From Yinghuangia soli (GTDB lineage Bacteria; Actinomycetota; Actinomycetes; Streptomycetales; Streptomycetaceae): a DNA stretch of 37,188 nucleotides. The translations under genes and the position numbers were made by a program. The notes below the pieces were generated by a model. The model made no database searches and had not been told where the DNA came from. It saw only the letters and a list, made by a program, of their open reading frames with translations. The DNA is taken from positions 1 to 37,188 of the forward strand of contig NZ_JAKFHA010000007.1 in the NCBI RefSeq assembly GCF_021502675.1. Direction: 5' to 3'. This document shows, piece after piece, positions 26,303-34,569 of this stretch. The first letter of the stretch is position 1; each line of letters starts with the position of its first letter.

Positions 26303-27037
26303 ATGTCGAGCTCCCCCGCGTCGAACCCGCCCGCGGCCCCCGTGCGCACCAAGCGCGTCGGCCGCCAGCTCACCCCGGACCAGATCGTCGAGGCCAGCCT
26401 GCGCATCGCCGCCCGCGGCAGCGCGGACGCCTTCACGATCCGCCGCCTCGGCGACGAACTGGGCAGCGACCCGACGGCGATCTACCGCCACTTCCGGGAC
26501 AAGGACGAGCTGATGCTCACGGTCGCCGACCGCATGCACGGCGAGGTCCTCGACAACGTCCCCGACGGCCTCGACTGGCGCGACCGCCTCCGCGCGCTCG
26601 CCGCCGCCGCGCACGCCGCCGCGGTGAAGTACCCGATCGTCGCGTCGAGTACCGCCAGCCGCACCACGCGCCGCGTCAACGAGTTCCGCATCGTCGAACT
26701 CATCCTCGGCGCCCTCGCCGAGGCCGGCCTCGACGGCGCCGACGCCGCGCTGTACTACCGCGTGGTCGGCGACTCGATGCTCGCGTACACCGGCCAGTAC
26801 GCCGCGTACCTGCTCGTCGAACCGGGCGTGCGCGCATCGGACGAGGCCTCCTGGTCAGGCGAGTACCGACTCGCCGACACGGCCCGCTTCCCGCACATCA
26901 CCCGGCTCGGCGACGAACTCCCCGCCATCACCCACGAAGCCATCTACGAGGCCCGCTTCGAGGCGCTGATCATCGCGATCGAGCACCTCGCCGCCGAACG
27001 CCGCGCCGCCGCCGGGGACGCCGGCACCGCATCCTGA
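26303..27037 (+). CDS. TetR family transcriptional regulator
   Basis: The 244-residue protein has a clear TetR helix-turn-helix (about 20-75): LTPDQIVEASLRIAARGSAD, FTIRRLGDELGSDPTAIYRH and FRDKDELMLTVADRM. The C-terminal domain is helical and unassigned (VVGDSMLAYTGQYAAYLLVE). It is divergent from the amidohydrolase-opp operon and is the likely repressor acting on the iterated repeats between them. No Shine-Dalgarno tract precedes the ATG; a TAGACT box (26288-26293) ends nine bases before it, so the message may be nearly leaderless. It converges on the 27050-33575 block with only 12 bp between stops. Confidence 0.88.
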   Translation: MSSSPASNPPAAPVRTKRVGRQLTPDQIVEASLRIAARGSADAFTIRRLGDELGSDPTAIYRHFRDKDELMLTVADRMHGEVLDNVPDGLDWRDRLRALAAAAHAAAVKYPIVASSTASRTTRRVNEFRIVELILGALAEAGLDGADAALYYRVVGDSMLAYTGQYAAYLLVEPGVRASDEASWSGEYRLADTARFPHITRLGDELPAITHEAIYEARFEALIIAIEHLAAERRAAAGDAGTAS

Positions 27038-27049
27038 CCGGCCCGCGGC

Positions 27050-28021
27050 CTACGGCCCCACCTGCAGGAACTCCGCCGGCGGCCGGCCGACGGCCCACAA
27101 GTCGTTGAACCGGTGGATGCACTGCGCCACCCGCTCGCTGCGCCACACCATCCGCGTCGTGTCGATCACCGGCTGCGCGCTCAGCTCGGGCCGCACCTCG
27201 TAGGTCGCCTCGCCGTCGAACACGATGAAGTCGATCATCGTGTCGATGCGGGCCGTCTCCGGGAACGTCGACGTGGTGGCGACCCGTACCTCCACCCCGA
27301 GTTCGGCATGCCGGCGGCAGCGCTCCTGGACGCTCGCGTCCTGCGCCTCGGCGTCGTCCGCGACGATGAAGAGCCGGCGCACCCGCACCCCGCGCAGGAT
27401 CGCCTTGCGCTGCGCGACCAGGTAGCGGCGCCCCAGCTCCGTCGTCCAGAACTCGTAGTCCACCGACGTGCTCGTCGCATCGATCGTGGCACGCGTGACA
27501 TCAGTCAGCGTCAGCAGCCAGTCGTGGTCCTCGCCCGCATAGTCCACGTGATCCGTCTTCAGGTCCCGCAACAACTGCGTGACGCGCCGGAGTTCGGCCT
27601 CCGCGAAGGCATAGATGATGTCCGGCTCGTCGCCCCCGATAGCGGTCGCAGAACGCACCAGATCCGTCAGCGCCTCGGTGGGCAGCGCAGAACCCGATAC
27701 TTCCCCGAAGAACTTGGTGGCCTCGCTCACCCGCGCGAAACCCGTCTCGACCAGGATTTCCATCCCCGCCGTGTGATGGCCCCACGACGTCGTCATCCCG
27801 TCGGCATGCTGCTCCACCGCCAACCCGACCTCACCGAGCCGCCGTTCGAAATCCACCATGTACTGCACGATGAGCGTGGCACCGCCTATGAAGATCGTGA
27901 TGGTCAGCTGCCACACCTCTTCCTGACCGGTCAGCTCGGTCACCGAATAGGCGATGCCGCCGAACACCACGGCCAGGACGGCCTTCAAGAGAAAGGGCGG
28001 TATTGCAGGTGTCTGGCGCAT
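27050..28021 (-). CDS. Two-TM protein with a possible phospholipase-D-like domain
   Basis: The 323-residue protein has two N-terminal membrane helices (about 11-28, LLKAVLAVVFGGIAYSV, and 39-56, LTITIFIGGATLIVQYMV), a helical middle, and a C-terminal alpha/beta domain from about residue 160. That domain contains SVDYEFWTTELGRRYLVAQR, AILRGVRVRRLFIVADD, LGVEVRVATTS and MIDFIVFDGEATYEVRPE. The order resembles PLD-type sensor or effector domains, but the catalytic HxK(x4)D motif is not visible, so it would be degenerate. This assignment is inference. It lies 34 bp after the SCO2521-like gene, has a GGGGGAG ribosome site, and probably belongs to that operon. It could anchor the system to the membrane. 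Confidence 0.6.
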   Translation of the reverse strand: MRQTPAIPPFLLKAVLAVVFGGIAYSVTELTGQEEVWQLTITIFIGGATLIVQYMVDFERRLGEVGLAVEQHADGMTTSWGHHTAGMEILVETGFARVSEATKFFGEVSGSALPTEALTDLVRSATAIGGDEPDIIYAFAEAELRRVTQLLRDLKTDHVDYAGEDHDWLLTLTDVTRATIDATSTSVDYEFWTTELGRRYLVAQRKAILRGVRVRRLFIVADDAEAQDASVQERCRRHAELGVEVRVATTSTFPETARIDTMIDFIVFDGEATYEVRPELSAQPVIDTTRMVWRSERVAQCIHRFNDLWAVGRPPAEFLQVGP

Positions 28022-28055
28022 GTCTCCCCCGATGGGATCGCGTGGCGTCGGCCGC

Positions 28056-29024
28056 CTAATGTCGAGTCAGGTCGTCTCGCAGCAAAGGGATGGCCTGCAA
28101 GGCCAGTTGGTCGCGAATACGCTGCACGAGGATGCGCCACTGCGCGGAAAATCCCGGCGTACGCTCCAGCACCTCCCACAGCGGGACGAGCGGCGCCGCC
28201 ACCCGGACCATGGGCATCCACAAATGCAGCAGATGGTCGACGGCCGGACGCAGCGCCGCGACCGCCTCGGGGCCCGGCACGGACCCCAGCCGGCTGCGCT
28301 CGACCATGTGCACCAGAGTCGTCAGCAGCCAGTCGTGCAAGGCAAGGTCCTCGCACAGACCCAGCACGCCCTCGTCGTCGGGATCGGGCACCCGGAGCAG
28401 CACCGTACGCAGCCCGTCATCCGCCAACGTGAACCGCTCGATCACCGGCGCGGCCCCCGGATCGCCCCGCAGCGCCGACCAACGCAGCCGCGTACGCCGC
28501 GACTTGAACGGCGCCCGCCGGTCCAGCAGCGCATGCGCATGCAGATCGCCGATCAGGCGCTCCGCAACCGCCCCCGGGTCCAACGTCTGCACCCCGCCGG
28601 CCCGTCCGTCCAGGAAGCCCGCGGCCGCGTCCCCCTCCTCCAGCCGCCCCGCAGGCTCCACGATGCCCGGCCGCACCAGGTAATGCCCCCACGGCTGCCG
28701 GTGCTCCGGCCCCCGCGCGGGCGCCCTGAAGCACGCCGTGGCCTGCAGCACCCGGCCCTCGGTCAGCACCGCCCGCGCCCGCACCGTCCCGACCCCGCGC
28801 ACCTTCGCCCCCGACTTCGCCGGGAACAAGCAGTCCACACCGGTCAGCAACTCCGGCGAGACCACATGCAGATTCGGCCGGGCCGACAGCGACACCCCCG
28901 AATCCGGCCGCAACTGCAGCAACTGCGCAGCCGACGCCGCCGGCAGCGAAGCCGACGTCTGCAGCAGGCAGGTCCGCACCTCCCCGCAGGAGAGCACCCG
29001 GACGCCGTCCCCCGTGGCGTCCAT
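28056..29024 (-). CDS. SCO2521 family protein (unknown function)
   Basis: The 322-residue protein begins MDATGDGVRVLSCGEVRTCL. I recognise it from its sequence and neighbours as the SCO2521 type, a conserved actinobacterial family with no known activity. It has an N-terminal beta-rich half (LLQTSASLPAASAAQLLQLR, NLHVVSPELLTGVDC) and a helical C-terminal half rich in Leu and Arg (LHDWLLTTLVHMVERSRLG, WRILVQRIRDQLALQAIPLL). No signal peptide or membrane helix is evident. The ATG shares one base with the stop of the SCO2522-like gene (TGATG). A much longer open frame reaching 30038 is noise from the genes upstream. Confidence 0.8.
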   Translation of the reverse strand: MDATGDGVRVLSCGEVRTCLLQTSASLPAASAAQLLQLRPDSGVSLSARPNLHVVSPELLTGVDCLFPAKSGAKVRGVGTVRARAVLTEGRVLQATACFRAPARGPEHRQPWGHYLVRPGIVEPAGRLEEGDAAAGFLDGRAGGVQTLDPGAVAERLIGDLHAHALLDRRAPFKSRRTRLRWSALRGDPGAAPVIERFTLADDGLRTVLLRVPDPDDEGVLGLCEDLALHDWLLTTLVHMVERSRLGSVPGPEAVAALRPAVDHLLHLWMPMVRVAAPLVPLWEVLERTPGFSAQWRILVQRIRDQLALQAIPLLRDDLTRH

Positions 29025-29980
29025 CAGGAACCCGAATACAGGACGTAGGCCGCCCGGTCGGCCACCTCCGCAGGGAGCGGAAAGCCCTCCTGCGCGGCAC
29101 GTTCCGAGACCTGCTCCAGCGCCCTCGGCTCCACCTGCACCCGGCCGAGGACGATGCGCACCGCATGCTCCACGTCCAAGAACCGGTTCGGCAGCACCGA
29201 GCACGTCTGGTACGCGGCGAACGGCGCCGCTTCCTCCCGCAGTTGCACCACCGCCGGAAGCGCGTCCCAGTCCCCCGGGAAACCGCCCGCCCACCGCACC
29301 GGCGACATCACCGGATCGCCGCGATGCCGCAGCAGCCCGAGCCGCGCCAACTGCCACACCGCGGCCAGGAACGCACACGACCAGGTCCGGCGCTGCCCCC
29401 GGTCGTCCCACAACTCGACGTCGGTGAACACCGAATGGCGCCGCGCACCGACCTCGGACGGCGGGCTCCAGGCCGGCACGCCGCTCATCGCCTCCAGGGC
29501 GTCGACGGCCGGGGTGCGCTCGCCGTTGCACATCCAGCCCACCTCGCGCACCGGCGGCCGCGAACCGTTGCTGCCCGGCGGCGGCGCCTCGACGAGCCGG
29601 GCCAGAACCGACGCGGCCAGCTCGACACCGTCCGCCCGCGCGCACCCCGACTCGCGGGCCAGATAGTCGATGCGCAGGCCGGCCGCCTCGGCCTCGGCCA
29701 GCACCATCGGGACCAACTCGGCCGGCGAGGAGTACCGGGTGAAGTAGTCGTCCACGAGAAAGCACGTGCTGATCCGCGGCCGGCCCCGCGGCAGCTGCGC
29801 CGCGGTCATCGCGGTGACCGCGTCCGCCCACGGCCGGACCCGGCCGAAATGGGCGCGCAGCCGCTCCGGGCCGGCCGCGAAGTCGTCCATGTACAGATGG
29901 CCGAGTTCGAGGGAGACATGCGCGAGGGGCACCGCCGCGACCCGCGGCTCGGCCGTCGTCTCGTGGAACACGGTCTCCAC
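29024..29980 (-). CDS. SCO2522 family protein (unknown function)
   Basis: The 318-residue protein starts at a GTG whose first base is the last base of the preceding TAG stop (TAGTG), with GGAGG eight bases upstream inside the SCO2523-like gene. Features include an N-terminal strand-helix region LAHVSLELGHLYMDDF, ISTCFLVDDYFTRYSSPAEL, and a central WMCNGERTPAVDALEAMSG. The C-terminal part has WSCAFLAAVWQLARLGLLRH and YQTCSVLPNRFLDVEHAVRI. The acidic VDDYF and the conserved cysteines could be functional, but no known catalytic motif is evident. The identification as SCO2522-type rests on sequence impression plus gene order next to SCO2521-, SCO2523- and SCO2524-like genes. Confidence 0.8.
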   Translation of the reverse strand: METVFHETTAEPRVAAVPLAHVSLELGHLYMDDFAAGPERLRAHFGRVRPWADAVTAMTAAQLPRGRPRISTCFLVDDYFTRYSSPAELVPMVLAEAEAAGLRIDYLARESGCARADGVELAASVLARLVEAPPPGSNGSRPPVREVGWMCNGERTPAVDALEAMSGVPAWSPPSEVGARRHSVFTDVELWDDRGQRRTWSCAFLAAVWQLARLGLLRHRGDPVMSPVRWAGGFPGDWDALPAVVQLREEAAPFAAYQTCSVLPNRFLDVEHAVRIVLGRVQVEPRALEQVSERAAQEGFPLPAEVADRAAYVLYSGS

Positions 29981-30900
29981 TACGGCGACCTCCACATCTC
30001 GTCGTCGAACAGCGCCTTCGACAATTCCTCGAGAGCAAGCCAGGTCTCGATGTTGGCGACGCCGCTGCCCGGCGTGACGTCGTCTATGGTGATCAGCTGC
30101 TCGCGCCACTGCAGCACCGGTTCGAGCGGCACCGCCCCCAGCTTGCGGGTGTTGCCGATCCCGTGCTCCGCGGCCAGCTCCCGCAGTTGCTCGTTGCACG
30201 CCCGCATCCACGACGCCTGCTCCAGCGGCACGGACGCCCACAGCGCCCCATCGGGATCCGGCACCGCGGCCCGCACCGGGCGTATCGCCGCGGCGAGTTC
30301 ATCCTTGTCGTGCCCCCGCGCGGCACCCGCCTCCAGGATCCCGCGCGCACCGAACATCAGGCCCGCAGCGGCGATCACATGCTGGCGCGTCCAGCGGTGG
30401 AACACCATCCACCGGCTGGTCACCTGCTTCAACTCGGGCCGGGCGGTGACCTCCAGGACCATGTCCATCGCATACGAACGGCCCGCGCTGAGATCGACCA
30501 GCACCACGTCGAACTCCTCCTCCAGCCGCAGGAAGAGGGTCACGCAGCGGCGCACCGTCTCGCGCCCGATCACGAACTCGCCGCCGCCGCGGTCGCCCGG
30601 GAACAGCGCCAGACGCCCCGCATTGACCGGCTGATTGCGCAGCACGCGGTGCTCGGTCTCCGCCCATACGTCGATCCGGCGCGGCTCCGTCACCCCGCCC
30701 TGCAAATACGAGTGCAGGCCGTTCCCGTCGATACCGCGCAACGCACTGGGGACGTCGAAGACCGCCGCCGCGGTGGGCGAGCCGAAGTCGAAGTCCAGGT
30801 AGCAGACGTCGCGTCCGTTGACCGCGCACTGGTACGCGATGTTGGCACTGGTCACCGAACGGCCGGTGCCGCCTTTGTCCGACGCAGCGAAGACGAGCAC
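29980..30900 (-). CDS. SCO2523 family variant P-loop ATPase-like protein (ParA/MinD-related)
   Basis: The 306-residue protein begins MLVFAASDKGGTGRSVTSAN. The deviant Walker A of ParA/MinD proteins is KGGxGKT; here it is K9-G-G-T-G-R14-S15, with the signature lysine kept but the P-loop lysine replaced by arginine. Other parts fit: YLDFDFGSPTAAAVF (switch I region, D36 and D38) and VVLVDLSAGRS (Walker B-like, D136). These proteins form nucleotide-dependent dimers that position partners on membranes or DNA; with Arg14, ATP hydrolysis may be weak or absent, though other variant P-loop proteins retain function. The GTG start lies three bases after the SCO2524-like stop. Confidence 0.88.
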   Translation of the reverse strand: MLVFAASDKGGTGRSVTSANIAYQCAVNGRDVCYLDFDFGSPTAAAVFDVPSALRGIDGNGLHSYLQGGVTEPRRIDVWAETEHRVLRNQPVNAGRLALFPGDRGGGEFVIGRETVRRCVTLFLRLEEEFDVVLVDLSAGRSYAMDMVLEVTARPELKQVTSRWMVFHRWTRQHVIAAAGLMFGARGILEAGAARGHDKDELAAAIRPVRAAVPDPDGALWASVPLEQASWMRACNEQLRELAAEHGIGNTRKLGAVPLEPVLQWREQLITIDDVTPGSGVANIETWLALEELSKALFDDEMWRSP

Positions 30901-30903
30901 CGG

Positions 30904-32745
30904 TCACACCCCCCGGGACGCGACCTGCCGACCCACCGCCAGCTTGTCCAGATCACCGAGGACCAGCAGCGCCAATGCGCAGGCGGTGCCCGGCTGTTCG
31001 TCGACGATCGTCTGGGCCCGGCGCAGCCGCACCTCGACCTGCTTGAGCGCCAGGTGCCGCGTGCTGTCCTCGACCGAGGTCGGCTCCATCAGCTCGTTGC
31101 CGTACAACTGCCCGGCCTCGCTCAGCAGCGCATCGGCCATGCCGGTCAACTCCGCGCTGCGGATGGGACTCTGCCCGTACAGCTGGCGAGCCGCGACCAT
31201 GCTCTCGACCACGCGCTCGGTGGTGCTCCACGACAACTTGCGGTCCAGCTTGGGCGAGACCGGGAAGCTCACGTGCACGTCGTCCCACAGTCGCGTGCCC
31301 ACACCGTCCTTGATGCGGCGGGCCCACAAGTGGTCGAGGGTCCGCTCGGCCAACTGCATGAGCCGCTCGCGCGACGCGAGGTTCCGGGACAGCCCGCACA
31401 GCTGGATGGTCCGCTTCAGCAACTGCGCGGAGAAGTCGGTCAGTGCCCACTGCATCGGCGGACCGAGCGTCTCGCTGCCGAGCAGGTTCAACCGGACCCC
31501 GGGATTGTGCAGCGCCACCACCGGGTCGTTGTCCATGGGACGGCTGGTCACCCGGCCGCGCTCGGCCAGCCGCTCCATGATCGCCACGGTTCTGGTCAGG
31601 TCGTCGTCGGTGGCTTTGCGGCGGACCAGGTCCTGGATCACGATCGCGGCGACCGAGAGACTGAAGTACTCCGACTCCAACTGCTGGCCGGTCGTCCGCC
31701 AGGGGATGTCCTCCAGCGGCCACGTGCCCTCGCCGAAGCGCGCCACGATCGACCAGTACTGCTGGGTGATCTCCCAGCGCAGGCGCAGCGCCTCCGCCAG
31801 CCGCTGCTGCTCCGCGTTGAGCAGACCGAGGATGAGCGTGCGCTCCGAATACAGGTCGGCGATGCCGTCCAGCGCCACCACCGAGAAGTACAGGTACGGA
31901 GTCGCCAGCGCCACGCCCTTGGGCTGGCCGCCGATCGCCTCCTCGGTGTCCACCTCGGGCGCGTCCGCCACCACGCTCCACGACCAGCCGCACTCGAACA
32001 GCTGGTTGTCGTCCTCCAGCACCCCGGCCACGTCCAGACCGAGGACCAGGCGGTCCCGGATGGTGGCGCGCAGCGGGCGCAGGCGGCGCTGGAACTGCTG
32101 CATCAGCAGCCGGTCCCCTGGCCGACCCCGGGTGACGAGACCGCTCAGCGCCTTGCCCTGCGGCGACTCCGACTCGAACACGTTCACCGTGAAACTGCGC
32201 AGCAGGCTCACCATCGCCGCGGTCAGGCGCAGCGAGATGGCCTCCCGTAACGCCTCGGCCTTCTCCTGGACCTCGGTCCGCCGCGGCTTCGCCAGGTACA
32301 CCTTGAGGAAGCCGAGCGTGGCGAGCCCCAGCGTGATGGCCATGGAATAGGCGTCCGTCACGCCCAGTTCGCGCTGCGCCTCGGTCAGCGAGTCGGCCTT
32401 CTTCTCGGGCGAGAAGTAGTAACCGCCGGAGAAGGTCGGGACGCCGTCCTCGTCGGTGTGCTGCTCGACGTACTCGCTGAGCGCGTCGATGAGCTTGAGC
32501 GGGATCTCGCTGCGCCCGCCGAGGACGCGCACCGCTTCCAGGACGTCCCGGTCGGTGGTGTCCGGATCGTCCAGCCGGAACGCGGGGACCTCGGTGGCGG
32601 GATACATGATGCAGAGCAGGCGCTCGGCGTCCGCGACGCTGCTCGGCGTGGCGTTGTCGTCCCACAGCCATTCGCCGCCGACGTACGACTGCCGGGCGAC
32701 CGCCTGCCAAATCTCCAACAGCTGCTGGCGCGGCTGGATCCGCAT
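30904..32745 (-). CDS. SCO2524 family protein (unknown function), with an in-frame TTA codon
   Basis: The 613-residue protein is the largest of the cluster, starts MRIQPRQQLLEIWQAVARQS and has AAGGGGA before its ATG. It is mainly alpha-helical. A mildly hydrophobic stretch near 134-153 (MAITLGLATLGFLKVYLAK) might associate with membrane but is followed by charged helices. Other marks are FECGWSWSVVADAPEVD, YLYFSVVALDGIADLYSERT and VRLRRAQTIVDEQPGTACAL. I know of no assigned activity for the SCO2524 type. Leu166 is encoded by TTA (32250-32248), the rarest codon in streptomycetes and the one read by the bldA tRNA, which suggests developmental control of this protein and, through overlap, of the genes downstream. 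Confidence 0.82.
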   Translation of the reverse strand: MRIQPRQQLLEIWQAVARQSYVGGEWLWDDNATPSSVADAERLLCIMYPATEVPAFRLDDPDTTDRDVLEAVRVLGGRSEIPLKLIDALSEYVEQHTDEDGVPTFSGGYYFSPEKKADSLTEAQRELGVTDAYSMAITLGLATLGFLKVYLAKPRRTEVQEKAEALREAISLRLTAAMVSLLRSFTVNVFESESPQGKALSGLVTRGRPGDRLLMQQFQRRLRPLRATIRDRLVLGLDVAGVLEDDNQLFECGWSWSVVADAPEVDTEEAIGGQPKGVALATPYLYFSVVALDGIADLYSERTLILGLLNAEQQRLAEALRLRWEITQQYWSIVARFGEGTWPLEDIPWRTTGQQLESEYFSLSVAAIVIQDLVRRKATDDDLTRTVAIMERLAERGRVTSRPMDNDPVVALHNPGVRLNLLGSETLGPPMQWALTDFSAQLLKRTIQLCGLSRNLASRERLMQLAERTLDHLWARRIKDGVGTRLWDDVHVSFPVSPKLDRKLSWSTTERVVESMVAARQLYGQSPIRSAELTGMADALLSEAGQLYGNELMEPTSVEDSTRHLALKQVEVRLRRAQTIVDEQPGTACALALLVLGDLDKLAVGRQVASRGV

Positions 32746-32777
32746 CCCGTTCCCCTTATGAAGATGTCCTGCCGTGG

Positions 32778-33575
32778 TCAGGAATTGGACGCGCTCCGCC
32801 CGCAGGCCAACAGCATTCCCGTATATCCGGTGCGCAACCGCCGTCCCGGAATGGGAATCTCGATGATCGTGGTGGCCGTCGGATCGACGTACTTGACGAG
32901 GCTCTCCCCGACCTGATTCCGGTCCACCGGATAGGCGGGGAACTTCTGGCCGGCCACCTCATAGCCGCTGGAGTTCTCCATGAACGCCGCGGCAAACGGC
33001 GCGCCGGGATTCAGGCAGCCCAGGAATTTCGCGACGGCTTCCTCGAATTCGTGGCGGACCGTGGACATCGACTCGGCGACGAAGAACATCGTCCCGATGT
33101 CCCAGCGCTCCGCCGCGGCGCCGCCGCGCTCCTCGGCCAGGTCGAACAGGTCGCCCTGCCGGACCTCGGCGCGCTCCCGGAAGCAGGCCCGGGGGTCGCC
33201 GACCGCCTGGTACCCGGCATCGGCGGACAGGACCGACCAGAACTGGTCCCAGCCCGCGCCGTATTCGGCGATCTGGCCGCGCAGCCACGTGACGTTGGTC
33301 TGCGCCCGCTCGTACAGCAGGATCTCGTCGCACCACGGCAGCATCGACAGCGCCGGGTAGAGGTTGGCCCCGGCCCCGACGTCGATGCCCTTGAGCCCGG
33401 CCGGCCGGCCCCCCGGGAAACACGCGGCGAAGTGATCGCGGACCGCGGCAATGATCTGCCGGTCGTCTTCGCGCAGAGTCCGATAATTATGATCAAGATA
33501 TGATCGCGAATCGAACCTGTCCCAGGGTGCTTCCCGGTTGAGGGTCCGCGTTTTTCCGGCAGCCGAGTGCAGCAT
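32778..33575 (-). CDS. SCO2525 family SAM-dependent methyltransferase
   Basis: The 265-residue protein has a class I Rossmann methyltransferase core: GIDVGAGANLYPAL (motif I, about 63-76), EILLYERAQTNVTWLRGQI (acidic residue binding the SAM ribose), VRQGDLFDLAE (motif II region), MFFVAESMSTV and the later strand FAAAFMENSSGYEVAG. The lead FDSRSYLDHNYRTL resembles the NNMT/PNMT/TEMT family, so a small amine or thiol acceptor is possible. It is the promoter-proximal gene, 32 bp before the SCO2524-like gene. The ATG at 33575 has a purine tract that is too close to be ideal. Residues 21-32 use AT-ending codons unlike the rest of the window. Confidence 0.87.
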   Translation of the reverse strand: MLHSAAGKTRTLNREAPWDRFDSRSYLDHNYRTLREDDRQIIAAVRDHFAACFPGGRPAGLKGIDVGAGANLYPALSMLPWCDEILLYERAQTNVTWLRGQIAEYGAGWDQFWSVLSADAGYQAVGDPRACFRERAEVRQGDLFDLAEERGGAAAERWDIGTMFFVAESMSTVRHEFEEAVAKFLGCLNPGAPFAAAFMENSSGYEVAGQKFPAYPVDRNQVGESLVKYVDPTATTIIEIPIPGRRLRTGYTGMLLACGRSASNS

Positions 33576-33595
33576 CTTCTCATGCTAGCGCGGAA

Positions 33596-33620
33596 GCACT
33601 TCACCAGCCGATGGAAGTGC
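33596..33620. promoter_or_regulatory. Inverted repeat just upstream of the SCO2525-like gene
   Basis: GCACTTC (33596-33602) and GAAGTGC (33614-33620) are exact complements with an 11-bp spacer, 20-45 bp before the methyltransferase start. It could be an operator for the whole SCO2525-to-SCO2521 operon, or a leader hairpin. Confidence 0.4.
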
Positions 33621-33710
33621 CTCGCCACGGCGCGCCCGCCGAACGGAAGATCGAATTCCGTATCACCACCGTTCCGGCAATCCGGACCAGCCGGATCACC
33701 CATGCCCTTC

Positions 33711-33784
33711 TGGACATGGCGACATTCACCGCGTAGACCTTTAACCCACGGGTTGTTGCACGATGCACCCGATTGCACCGGTGC
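33711..33784 (+). promoter_or_regulatory. Candidate promoter and palindromes before the second GNAT gene
   Basis: TGGACA (33711-33716) and TAGACC (33734-33739) are 17 bp apart, a good streptomycete housekeeping match. AACCC-AC-GGGTT (33743-33754) covers the likely transcription start, and GCACCGGTGC (33775-33784) is a perfect 10-bp palindrome in the leader. Both are candidate operator sites. Confidence 0.45.
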
Positions 33785-33805
33785 CCGCGACTCCGAGGGA
33801 GAGGC

Positions 33806-34351
33806 ATGAACCCCCTTGCCGACGATCGTTTCCGCAAGGCGGGCACGTCCCGCTCCTTCACCGCGGCCGCCCGCACCCGCGCCGGCCTGCGCACCGTCGA
33901 GGAGCACGAACTCCCCGACCTGGCCGGCCTGGACATGGAGATATTCGCCGGCGACGCCTACCCGTACTTCGTCCTGCGCCAGCTCTTCGACGTGCACGGC
34001 GACCGCCTCAAGGTCGTCGACGACGGCTCCGAACTGTGCGGCTACGTCCTCGTCGCGACCCGCCAGGGCGGCAACCGCAGTTGGATCCTCGGCCTCGGCA
34101 CCCGCAAACGCTGCCGCGGCCTCGGCTACGGCCGCCGCCTCATGGCCGAGGCCGTCCGCATGTGCGCCGCCGACGGCGTCCACGAGGTCCGCCTCACCGT
34201 CGACCCCGCCAACACCGCGGCCGTCCAGCTCTACGAGTCCTTCGGCTTCGCCCGCGACCACCACCGCGACGACTACTTCGGCCCCGGCGAATCCCGCCTG
34301 ATCATGACCCTCACCCTGGCCCGCCCCACCCCGGACCGGCAGCCCCCCTGA
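33806..34351 (+). CDS. GNAT family N-acetyltransferase
   Basis: The 181-residue protein starts MNPLADDRFRKAGTSRSFTA, with GAGGGAGAGG before the ATG. It has a full GNAT domain: LRTVEEHELPDLAGLDMEIF, CGYVLVATRQGGNRSWILGL, motif A in LGTRKRCRGLGYGRRLM (R-G-L-G-Y-G, acetyl-CoA binding), EVRLTVDPANTAAVQLYESF and the GFARDHHRDDYFG end. The last part (N-x-x-A-x-x-L-Y-x-x-x-G-F) is the typical motif B of RimI-like enzymes. The acetyl acceptor is unknown. It is divergent from the SCO2525-like operon across a 230-bp control region. Confidence 0.88.
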   Translation: MNPLADDRFRKAGTSRSFTAAARTRAGLRTVEEHELPDLAGLDMEIFAGDAYPYFVLRQLFDVHGDRLKVVDDGSELCGYVLVATRQGGNRSWILGLGTRKRCRGLGYGRRLMAEAVRMCAADGVHEVRLTVDPANTAAVQLYESFGFARDHHRDDYFGPGESRLIMTLTLARPTPDRQPP

Positions 34352-34569
34352 TCCGCTCCCGCTCATCCGCCCCGCCCGACGCGCCGCCCCCGAATCCCGC
34401 GACATCGTCAAGCAAAGGCCTGTTAGCGATCAGAACCGATCACCGAATCCGCCAAGAACACAAGCAACTTGCCCCCGCAAGATCACCTCTGACCCCACTC
34501 CGCCCACGCTCCGCGCCGACACGGCGCACCGACCCGGGCGGCCCGCTCCCGCGCACGCCCCCGGCACGC
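34352..34569. other. Intergenic stretch between the GNAT gene and the tRNA terminator
   Basis: No gene, RNA or strong repeat is apparent in this 218-bp stretch. It is C-rich on the plus strand and slightly less GC-rich around 34410-34480. Confidence 0.4.

Follow-up and report, generated by a model that had tools for sequence, protein, structure and literature searches.

A conserved seven-gene actinobacterial module of SCO2521-SCO2525-family genes, a GNAT acetyltransferase and a DUF6879 membrane protein

The 37,188-nucleotide stretch of Yinghuangia soli DNA analysed here (contig NZ_JAKFHA010000007.1; the window) contains seven neighbouring genes (Table 1) which, as comparison of homologous loci at the sequence level establishes, co-occur, co-diverge and swap places within one module. 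Our tentative reading, possible rather than probable, is that this actinobacterial module makes or modifies a metabolite of the amino-acid or amine type, under the control of a variant ParA-like protein and with one part anchored in the membrane.

Table 1. Genes of the module and their shared intergenic region, in window coordinates
Feature	Position	Strand	Basis
MT, SCO2525-family SAM methyltransferase (NNMT/PNMT/TEMT), 265 aa	33575-32778	-	NF040568, 325 bits (cut-off 240)
SCO2524-family protein, 613 aa	32745-30904	-	NF040567, 864 bits (cut-off 300)
SCO2523-family variant P-loop protein, ParA/MinD-like (KGGTGRS), 306 aa	30900-29980	-	NF040564, 469 bits (cut-off 200)
SCO2522-family protein, predicted class I aminoacyl-tRNA-synthetase-like fold, 318 aa	29980-29024	-	NF040566, 461 bits (cut-off 200)
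SCO2521-family protein, 322 aa	29024-28056	-	NF040565, 385 bits (cut-off 150)
TM6, sixth member, two N-terminal TM segments and C-terminal DUF6879, 323 aa	28021-27050	-	Hydrophobicity, Pfam, conserved gene order
GNAT-family acetyltransferase, seventh member, divergent from MT, 181 aa	33806-34351	+	Pfam Acetyltransf_1
GNAT-MT shared intergenic region, 230 bp	33576-33805		Sequence

An initial annotation had described a block of six genes and named five of them after SCO25xx families. All five products exceed the NCBIfam cut-offs, and the order and junctions read as it had claimed: 32 bp between MT and SCO2524, 3 bp between SCO2524 and SCO2523, TAGTG, TGATG, and 34 bp between SCO2521 and TM6. The arrangement is confirmed as real and not due to chance, its order and close junctions recurring across loci. 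The six genes follow the window order (MT, SCO2524, SCO2523, SCO2522, SCO2521, TM6) in 70 of 77 fetched loci; measured to the nearest start, the SCO2524-SCO2523 gap is 0 to 6 nt in 76/76 loci and the SCO2523-SCO2522 gap is -4 or -1 in 63/76. A description as six genes is nevertheless incomplete, since it overlooked a conserved GNAT gene standing divergently 230 bp upstream of MT. In the accessible part of PMC11472566, sco2521-sco2526 of S. coelicolor is called an operon and reported to be controlled by HupS; if GNAT is SCO2526, as we infer from gene order, the HupS-controlled set would include it. The HupS co-expression group as printed there ends at SCO2521, and thus leaves out TM6.

Gene presence was counted by tblastn (60 bits; 45 bits for GNAT), as presence only and not adjacency, because the codon-usage script used to call genes in the fetched loci missed or mis-started some of them, for example all of the cluster genes in L250 and SCO2521 in L258 and L260-L262. 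Removal of loci with identical C-terminal parts of three proteins reduced 157 loci to 134 distinct ones, and 122 of these hold all seven genes within the fetched stretch. At GTDB scale 446 relatives were found, the best 80 of which were fetched; among the class-level loci, 13 of 25 hold all seven, with GNAT or TM6 repositioned in many. Within the host family SCO2523 is patchily distributed (75 of 394 genomes). Both MT and SCO2523 are over cut-off in 73 of the 394, MT alone in five and SCO2523 alone in two, counts that exclude MT relatives below cut-off (116-146 bits) in 35 more genomes. The Fisher tests of the analysis ignore relatedness. Distances for the other genes correlate with those for SCO2523 (r 0.84-0.95), also after removal of the leuA distance (0.87-0.95, 55 loci) or of the recO distance (0.89-0.94, 63 loci), the control being weak because recO hardly varies (mean distance 0.05).

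Since 87 of the 134 distinct loci have leuA or recO within reach, the site of the cluster is partly core. This, together with the loss of differing gene subsets in differing lineages, might be expected if functionally unrelated genes owed their linkage solely to common regulation and a core-genome position. We consider that very unlikely in view of the strong genome-level co-occurrence and of 35 loci that have no leuA or recO within reach, in which GNAT is still upstream and divergent and GNAT, MT and TM6 remain with the core; they also do so in other families, where the internal order is shuffled.

Residues 6-24 and 38-56 of TM6 are hydrophobic segments, and residues 203-319 form a DUF6879 domain (Pfam PF21806, 26.2 bits, above the gathering score of 23.9). 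Of 21 homologues, 18 match this domain with an E value of 1 or below; no NCBIfam match of TM6 was found at E 0.1. Its membership, suggested by the initial annotation, is borne out by its position, in 128 of the 134 distinct loci, no more than about 10 kb from the cluster (tblastn) and by its presence in 72 of 75 cluster-bearing (SCO2523) genomes versus 4 of the 319 others among the same 394, the lists having been compared by eye. Four loci without TM6 carry a different two-TM protein, inverted, downstream of SCO2521. By eye it appeared channel-like, but an ion channel was rejected when the three of these proteins that were scanned showed no ion-channel match in Pfam. Outside the host family TM6 moves position yet mostly remains with the cluster. 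The window SCO2524 protein has three borderline hydrophobic stretches (1.50-1.56, threshold 1.5), five of 133 SCO2524 homologues have one stretch above 1.8, and no segments were detected in the other block products. Of the membrane-localised complex that had been envisaged, TM6 is clearly membrane-bound, whereas SCO2524 is borderline and the remaining products have no segments.

GNAT (Acetyltransf_1, 62.7 bits; gathering score 20.7) directly adjoins MT and is divergent from it in 119 of the 134 distinct loci; outside the host family the two genes are co-directional in 9 of 13 called loci. Its relatives with structures, among the matches listed (60 of 135), are largely protein N-terminal or polyamine acetyltransferases. 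A promoter scan revealed no sigma-70-type site in positions 26700-34500; TAGCAT, located by eye six bases before the start codon of MT, suggests that the MT mRNA is leaderless. K-mers are shared among the GNAT-MT intergenic regions, and an AACTC-GAGTT dyad occurs in 19 of the 119. Because of this low count, and because best-dyad arm lengths are only modestly above those of shuffles, a shared promoter element was dropped as lineage-specific. WhiA-type GACAC is present in 68 of the 119 regions versus 51-60 in shuffles, and BldD boxes are not enriched in them.

MT matches Pfam PF01234 (NNMT/PNMT/TEMT; 40.0 bits, gathering score 25, E 3.5e-10) and PNMT chains at E 3e-4, which fits the earlier suggestion that it may modify a small molecule. 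A mutant screen by Gehring et al. in 2004, which PMC3017869 cites, reportedly named SCO2525 as a development gene, without a mechanism. No MT over cut-off was found in any of the 11 genomes whose cluster is without it, and all five loci of the f92 type have neither MT nor GNAT; no single chemistry, therefore, is essential.

Among non-canonical loci a D-amino-acid oxidase (at least 100 bits) is near 8 of 25, and a D-2-hydroxyacid dehydrogenase (at least 100 bits) near 10 of 25, versus 0 of 139 canonical loci in each case; the p-values are descriptive since the query proteins were chosen from non-canonical loci, and for at least three of these 25 loci (L207, L266, L269) the non-canonical status is due only to a contig end. 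Four canonical loci also have weaker dehydrogenase relatives (74-84 bits) nearby. The oxidase belongs to the DAAO family by PDB match (E 3.5e-53), and its loci occupy four separate positions on the SCO2522 tree as read by eye. In L118-type and L262 loci the two enzymes are at least 2.6 kb from the core genes and could be chance neighbours.

For SCO2522 a class I aminoacyl-tRNA-synthetase-like (HUP/Rossmann) fold is predicted from one model, for which all 50 VIA-align entries listed are aminoacyl-tRNA synthetases or MshC. The call rests on that model because Foldseek found no PDB entry with an E value of 0.001 or lower (best 6e-3) and hhalign did not link the sequence to MshC or to the CysRS-like protein of the same genome. 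No usable match came from PDB sequence searches with the SCO2522, SCO2521 and SCO2524 profiles, SCO2521 having no match at E 5. Class I aminoacyl-tRNA synthetases carry HIGH and KMSKS signature motifs. Neither was recognised by eye in canonical form in the SCO2522 family alignment, which has a nearly invariant ELGH and the invariant residues E25, H28, D77, Y79, D105, Y106, E110, H182 and C202.

ParA/MinD ATPases possess a deviant Walker A motif, KGGxGKT, with both lysines. In SCO2523 the motif is KGGTGRS, Arg replacing the second Lys in 154 of 157 homologues (the remaining three are gene calls starting too late), and the nucleotide-switched complex of the initial annotation is to that extent unproven. 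Pfam scores are 25.0 bits for CbiA (gathering score 25.4) and 23.9 for ParA (27.1). In PHROGs the only match was ParA-like, to SCO2523, and a phage origin of the block was rejected. In 4 of the 28 SCO2524 members a weak DUF6829 match is seen, with E 1.3e-5 at best. The five genes do not always occur together as one machine: SCO2524 and SCO2523 stand alone in locus L127, and SCO2522 accompanies MT and differing other members in four of the five loci that have MT but not SCO2523.

We regard as quite unlikely the original model of a membrane-localised, nucleotide-switched growth or division complex resembling Min/ParA, whose methyltransferase modifies a partner. The P-loop of SCO2523, the two TM segments of TM6 and the morphogenetic role of SCO2525 stated in the accessible part of PMC6344877 agree with it, but the Arg substitution, the loci that lack SCO2524/SCO2523 while retaining other members, and the absence of a clear membrane segment outside TM6 do not. 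Doubtful, too, is a conflict or stress-signalling system of multicellular bacteria in which SCO2523 and SCO2524 act as the switch and TM6 or its replacement as the membrane effector. SCO2523 does match the KGGVGR-variant domain (AAA_KGGVGR, E 1.7e-10, 41.5 bits, under the cut-off of 90), MinD/ParA-like domains predicted to be inactive are described as conflict-system effectors in the accessible part of PMC7159879, and the patchy spread and the inverted two-TM protein would be in keeping. PADLOC, however, gave only weak matches (SCO2523 to PDC-M28B, 22.6 bits; SCO2521 to PDC-M21A, 12.3 bits), the site belongs in part to the core, two biosynthetic enzymes are present almost throughout, and the word methyltransferase is absent from the accessible main text of PMC7159879.

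Under the metabolite reading, SCO2522 would be the core enzyme, binding an amino acid, aminoacyl-adenylate or aminoacyl-tRNA, and the PNMT/NNMT-like MT and GNAT would act on the amino group of the compound that it uses or makes. Part of this chemistry may be taken over, in some lineages, by a D-amino-acid oxidase, at times together with the D-2-hydroxyacid dehydrogenase and another methyltransferase-like protein. SCO2523 would bind nucleotide with little or no hydrolysis and form with SCO2524 a regulatory pair, dispensable in some loci, while TM6 may link the output to the membrane via DUF6879. A small molecule with an effect on colony development would be the product, consistent with the reported SCO2525 mutant. 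A more specific proposal, which we rate as unlikely, is an undescribed pathway round SCO2522, as a new class I aminoacyl-tRNA-synthetase-like family. The amino-group enzymes of this pathway would be interchangeable (an N-methyltransferase, an acetyltransferase, or a D-amino-acid oxidase with a D-2-hydroxyacid dehydrogenase), and it would make or clear a hyphal-development signal derived from a (possibly D-) amino acid, gated by a non-canonical ParA-like protein and membrane-coupled via DUF6879. Together with the exchange of enzymes and the fold predicted for SCO2522, the extra members would give a conserved but unexplained operon a hypothesis in which the substrate class is defined.

Among known systems, the NCBIfam SCO2525, SCO2524, SCO2523, SCO2522 and SCO2521 families comprise the same gene set as the window, under names that carry no function; in the accessible literature on the SCO25xx genes we found neither GNAT nor the DUF6879 membrane protein as members, nor the alternative oxidase cassettes or the predicted SCO2522 fold. 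SCO2523 shares with the KGGVGR-variant MinD/ParA domains (NF047398; PMC7159879, as far as accessible) a ParA/MinD-like variant P-loop with Arg, but scores under the AAA_KGGVGR cut-off, and the seven genes include no vWA or MoxR member. From MshC and the class I aminoacyl-tRNA synthetases SCO2522 differs in that no sequence similarity was found, canonical HIGH and KMSKS were not recognised by eye, and it has invariant residues of its own. Cyclodipeptide synthases are related to class I aminoacyl-tRNA synthetases and use aminoacyl-tRNA. They were considered for SCO2522 from its fold and rejected, a single distant Foldseek row (9iam, E 2.3) being all that was found; by analogy, it would resemble them as a small stand-alone class I aminoacyl-tRNA-synthetase-like protein beside tailoring enzymes.

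The window carries SCO2525, SCO2524, SCO2523, SCO2522 and SCO2521 in that order on the minus strand. All five products score above the curated NCBIfam cut-offs, and the SCO25xx names used in the initial annotation are correct; the gene junctions given there match the window sequence. The gene 34 bp past SCO2521 encodes a 323-amino-acid protein (TM6) that has two hydrophobic segments near its N-terminus and DUF6879 as its C-terminal domain. A TetR-like regulator (family assigned by eye) is convergent with the cluster, its end lying 12 bp from that of TM6. Also by eye, TAGCAT was seen six bases ahead of the start codon of the SCO2525-family methyltransferase (MT), which would fit a leaderless transcript, with a GCACTTC/GAAGTGC dyad just upstream of it.

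Features located in the window and in cluster loci (L-numbers)
Feature	Locus	Position	Strand
TetR-like regulator	window	26303-27037	+
TAGCAT	window	33582-33587	
GNAT acetyltransferase	window	33806-34351	+
GNAT-domain and hydrophobic, probably multi-TM protein beside D-amino-acid oxidase	L277	7180-8451	+
The same, also in L275	L279	11317-12579	-
Large NB-ARC/TPR STAND-type protein, inverted between GNAT and D-amino-acid oxidase	L118	13227-15218	-

SCO2523 (NF040564), a variant ParA/MinD-like P-loop protein, exceeded its cut-off in 8 of 396 genomes phylum-wide; within the window's family the count was 75 of 394. SCO2522 scored above its own cut-off in 38 of 393 genomes drawn across the class, and these came from this family and three others (f3, f92 and f93). 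The first locus set (n=77) took in every SCO2523 place of the window's family, 76 in 75 genomes since one genome has two copies, plus a single place from elsewhere; all six genes stood in the same order in 70. Together with the best 80 of 446 relatives this made 157 loci, 134 of them distinct. MT and SCO2523 occurred together in 73 of the 394 genomes (MT only, five; SCO2523 only, two), and MT relatives below the cut-off in 35 further ones. Pairwise distances of all other members correlated with those of SCO2523 (r 0.84-0.95, 138 to 156 loci), also after regressing out the distances of the core genes recO (0.89-0.94, 63 loci) or leuA (0.87-0.95, 55 loci), which are weak controls since both show little variation (mean distance 0.05 for recO, 0.07 for leuA).

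The sixth gene had been proposed as a cluster member, and this is borne out: tblastn within about 10 kb located TM6 in 128 of 134 distinct loci and in 21 of 25 class-level loci. It was matched in 76 of the 394 family genomes, 72 of these being among the 75 SCO2523 genomes (overlap counted by list comparison, Fisher's test run on typed counts). Four genomes (G396, G528, G574, G593) have TM6 without SCO2523 over the cut-off, and three of them hold partial clusters. TM6 lies between SCO2523 and SCO2522 in some f93 loci (L249, L263, L264), just upstream of SCO2522 in L266 (cut by a contig end), and inverted and upstream in L271 (f93). From this co-occurrence and varied position, TM6 is therefore a faithful cluster member that changes place. 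It is duplicated in tandem in L091, L103 and L134, and genome G510 has the core genes without it (L118), with two copies and an MT fragment about 50 kb away. In seven genomes (G430, G439, G436, G451, G502, G593, G737) the match to the window's TM6 crosses one in-frame stop, either a real interruption or a natural gene end. TM6-less L137, L254, L259 and L272, one clade on the SCO2522 tree, carry a different protein of 269-286 amino acids, inverted downstream of SCO2521, with two C-terminal hydrophobic segments; a Pfam scan of three of these proteins gave no relevant match. It may be a stand-in for TM6.

The next most constant neighbour, and the seventh gene of the cluster, is a GNAT acetyltransferase, found in 147 of 157 loci by clustering and 128 of 134 distinct loci by tblastn; the families that follow reach at most 73 of 157 (recO). 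In 119 of 134 distinct loci it is the immediate, divergent neighbour of MT, at a distance of 103-587 bp that contains no called gene, and it persists in 35 loci where leuA and recO are both out of reach. Gene calls outside the window's family include it at 13 of 25 loci; in nine of these, all f93, it lies co-directional just upstream of MT, and in the two f3 loci it is inverted and downstream.

Loci with members missing or swapped (25 non-canonical, at least three of which, L207, L266 and L269, are cut by contig ends) show which parts vary. Among MT-only genomes, L278 reads GNAT-MT-2522-2521-TM6, without SCO2524 and SCO2523, and L276 GNAT, MT, 2522, TM6. In L275, L277 and L279 a D-amino-acid oxidase and an inverted GNAT-multi-TM protein take the place of this pair, L275 being otherwise decayed with weak SCO2523 and SCO2521 remnants. 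An oxidase of the same family occurs in MT-less L118, L172, L206 and L130/L160 (one genome), which share a similar large inverted gene (Table). In the first three it is followed by a methyltransferase-like protein (assigned by eye; no Pfam match) and a D-2-hydroxyacid dehydrogenase. In L262, which belongs to another family, all three of these protein families lie on the opposite side. MT and GNAT are missing from all five f92 loci, where a D-2-hydroxyacid dehydrogenase and a TPP enzyme are encoded upstream. MT exceeded its cut-off in none of the 11 genomes whose cluster lacks it. L130/L160 is a decaying cluster: its SCO2524 match is in overlapping pieces and TM6 is fragmented, with SCO2523, SCO2522 and SCO2521 seemingly intact. 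Genome G502 has SCO2524 and SCO2523 alone at L127, and at L136 a second SCO2523, its first P-loop Lys lost, with MT, SCO2522, SCO2521 and TM6.

The best PDB match of the oxidase, a D-aspartate oxidase (E 3.5e-53), places it in the DAAO family. At 100 bits or more it was found in 8 of 25 non-canonical versus 0 of 139 canonical loci, and the dehydrogenase in 10 of 25 versus 0 of 139, totals that are descriptive because the queries came from non-canonical loci. Weaker dehydrogenase relatives (74-84 bits) lie near canonical L101, L139, L148 and L157. Read by eye, the SCO2522 tree (65 rows, L275 left out) puts the oxidase loci at four points (L262; L277; L279; the L118/L130/L172/L206 clade) separated by canonical loci; the program, which takes labelled rows only, counted 2 changes.

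SCO2522 is the most constant part, then SCO2521, and the SCO2524/SCO2523 pair is lost together or found alone (L127). The swapped parts (N-methyltransferase, acetyltransferase, D-amino-acid oxidase, D-2-hydroxyacid dehydrogenase) and the predicted class I aminoacyl-tRNA-synthetase-like fold of SCO2522 suggest that the substrate is of an amino-acid or amine type. SCO2522 may be the centre of this small-molecule chemistry, with a putative regulatory role for the pair and possible membrane coupling through TM6.

We found no literature on KGGVGR or DUF6879, and no description of a seven-gene module or its function in the portions available for SCO2520-SCO2526, few subscription journals being covered in either case. 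The primary paper behind the growth or morphogenesis role of SCO2525 is reportedly Gehring et al. 2004. That paper is cited in PMC3017869, and the role is stated in PMC6344877 and PMC11472566. By gene order, our GNAT should be SCO2526. In PMC11472566, sco2521-sco2526, called an operon, are among the genes under HupS control solely; the group ends at SCO2521, and in that dataset this argues against the sixth gene being co-regulated.
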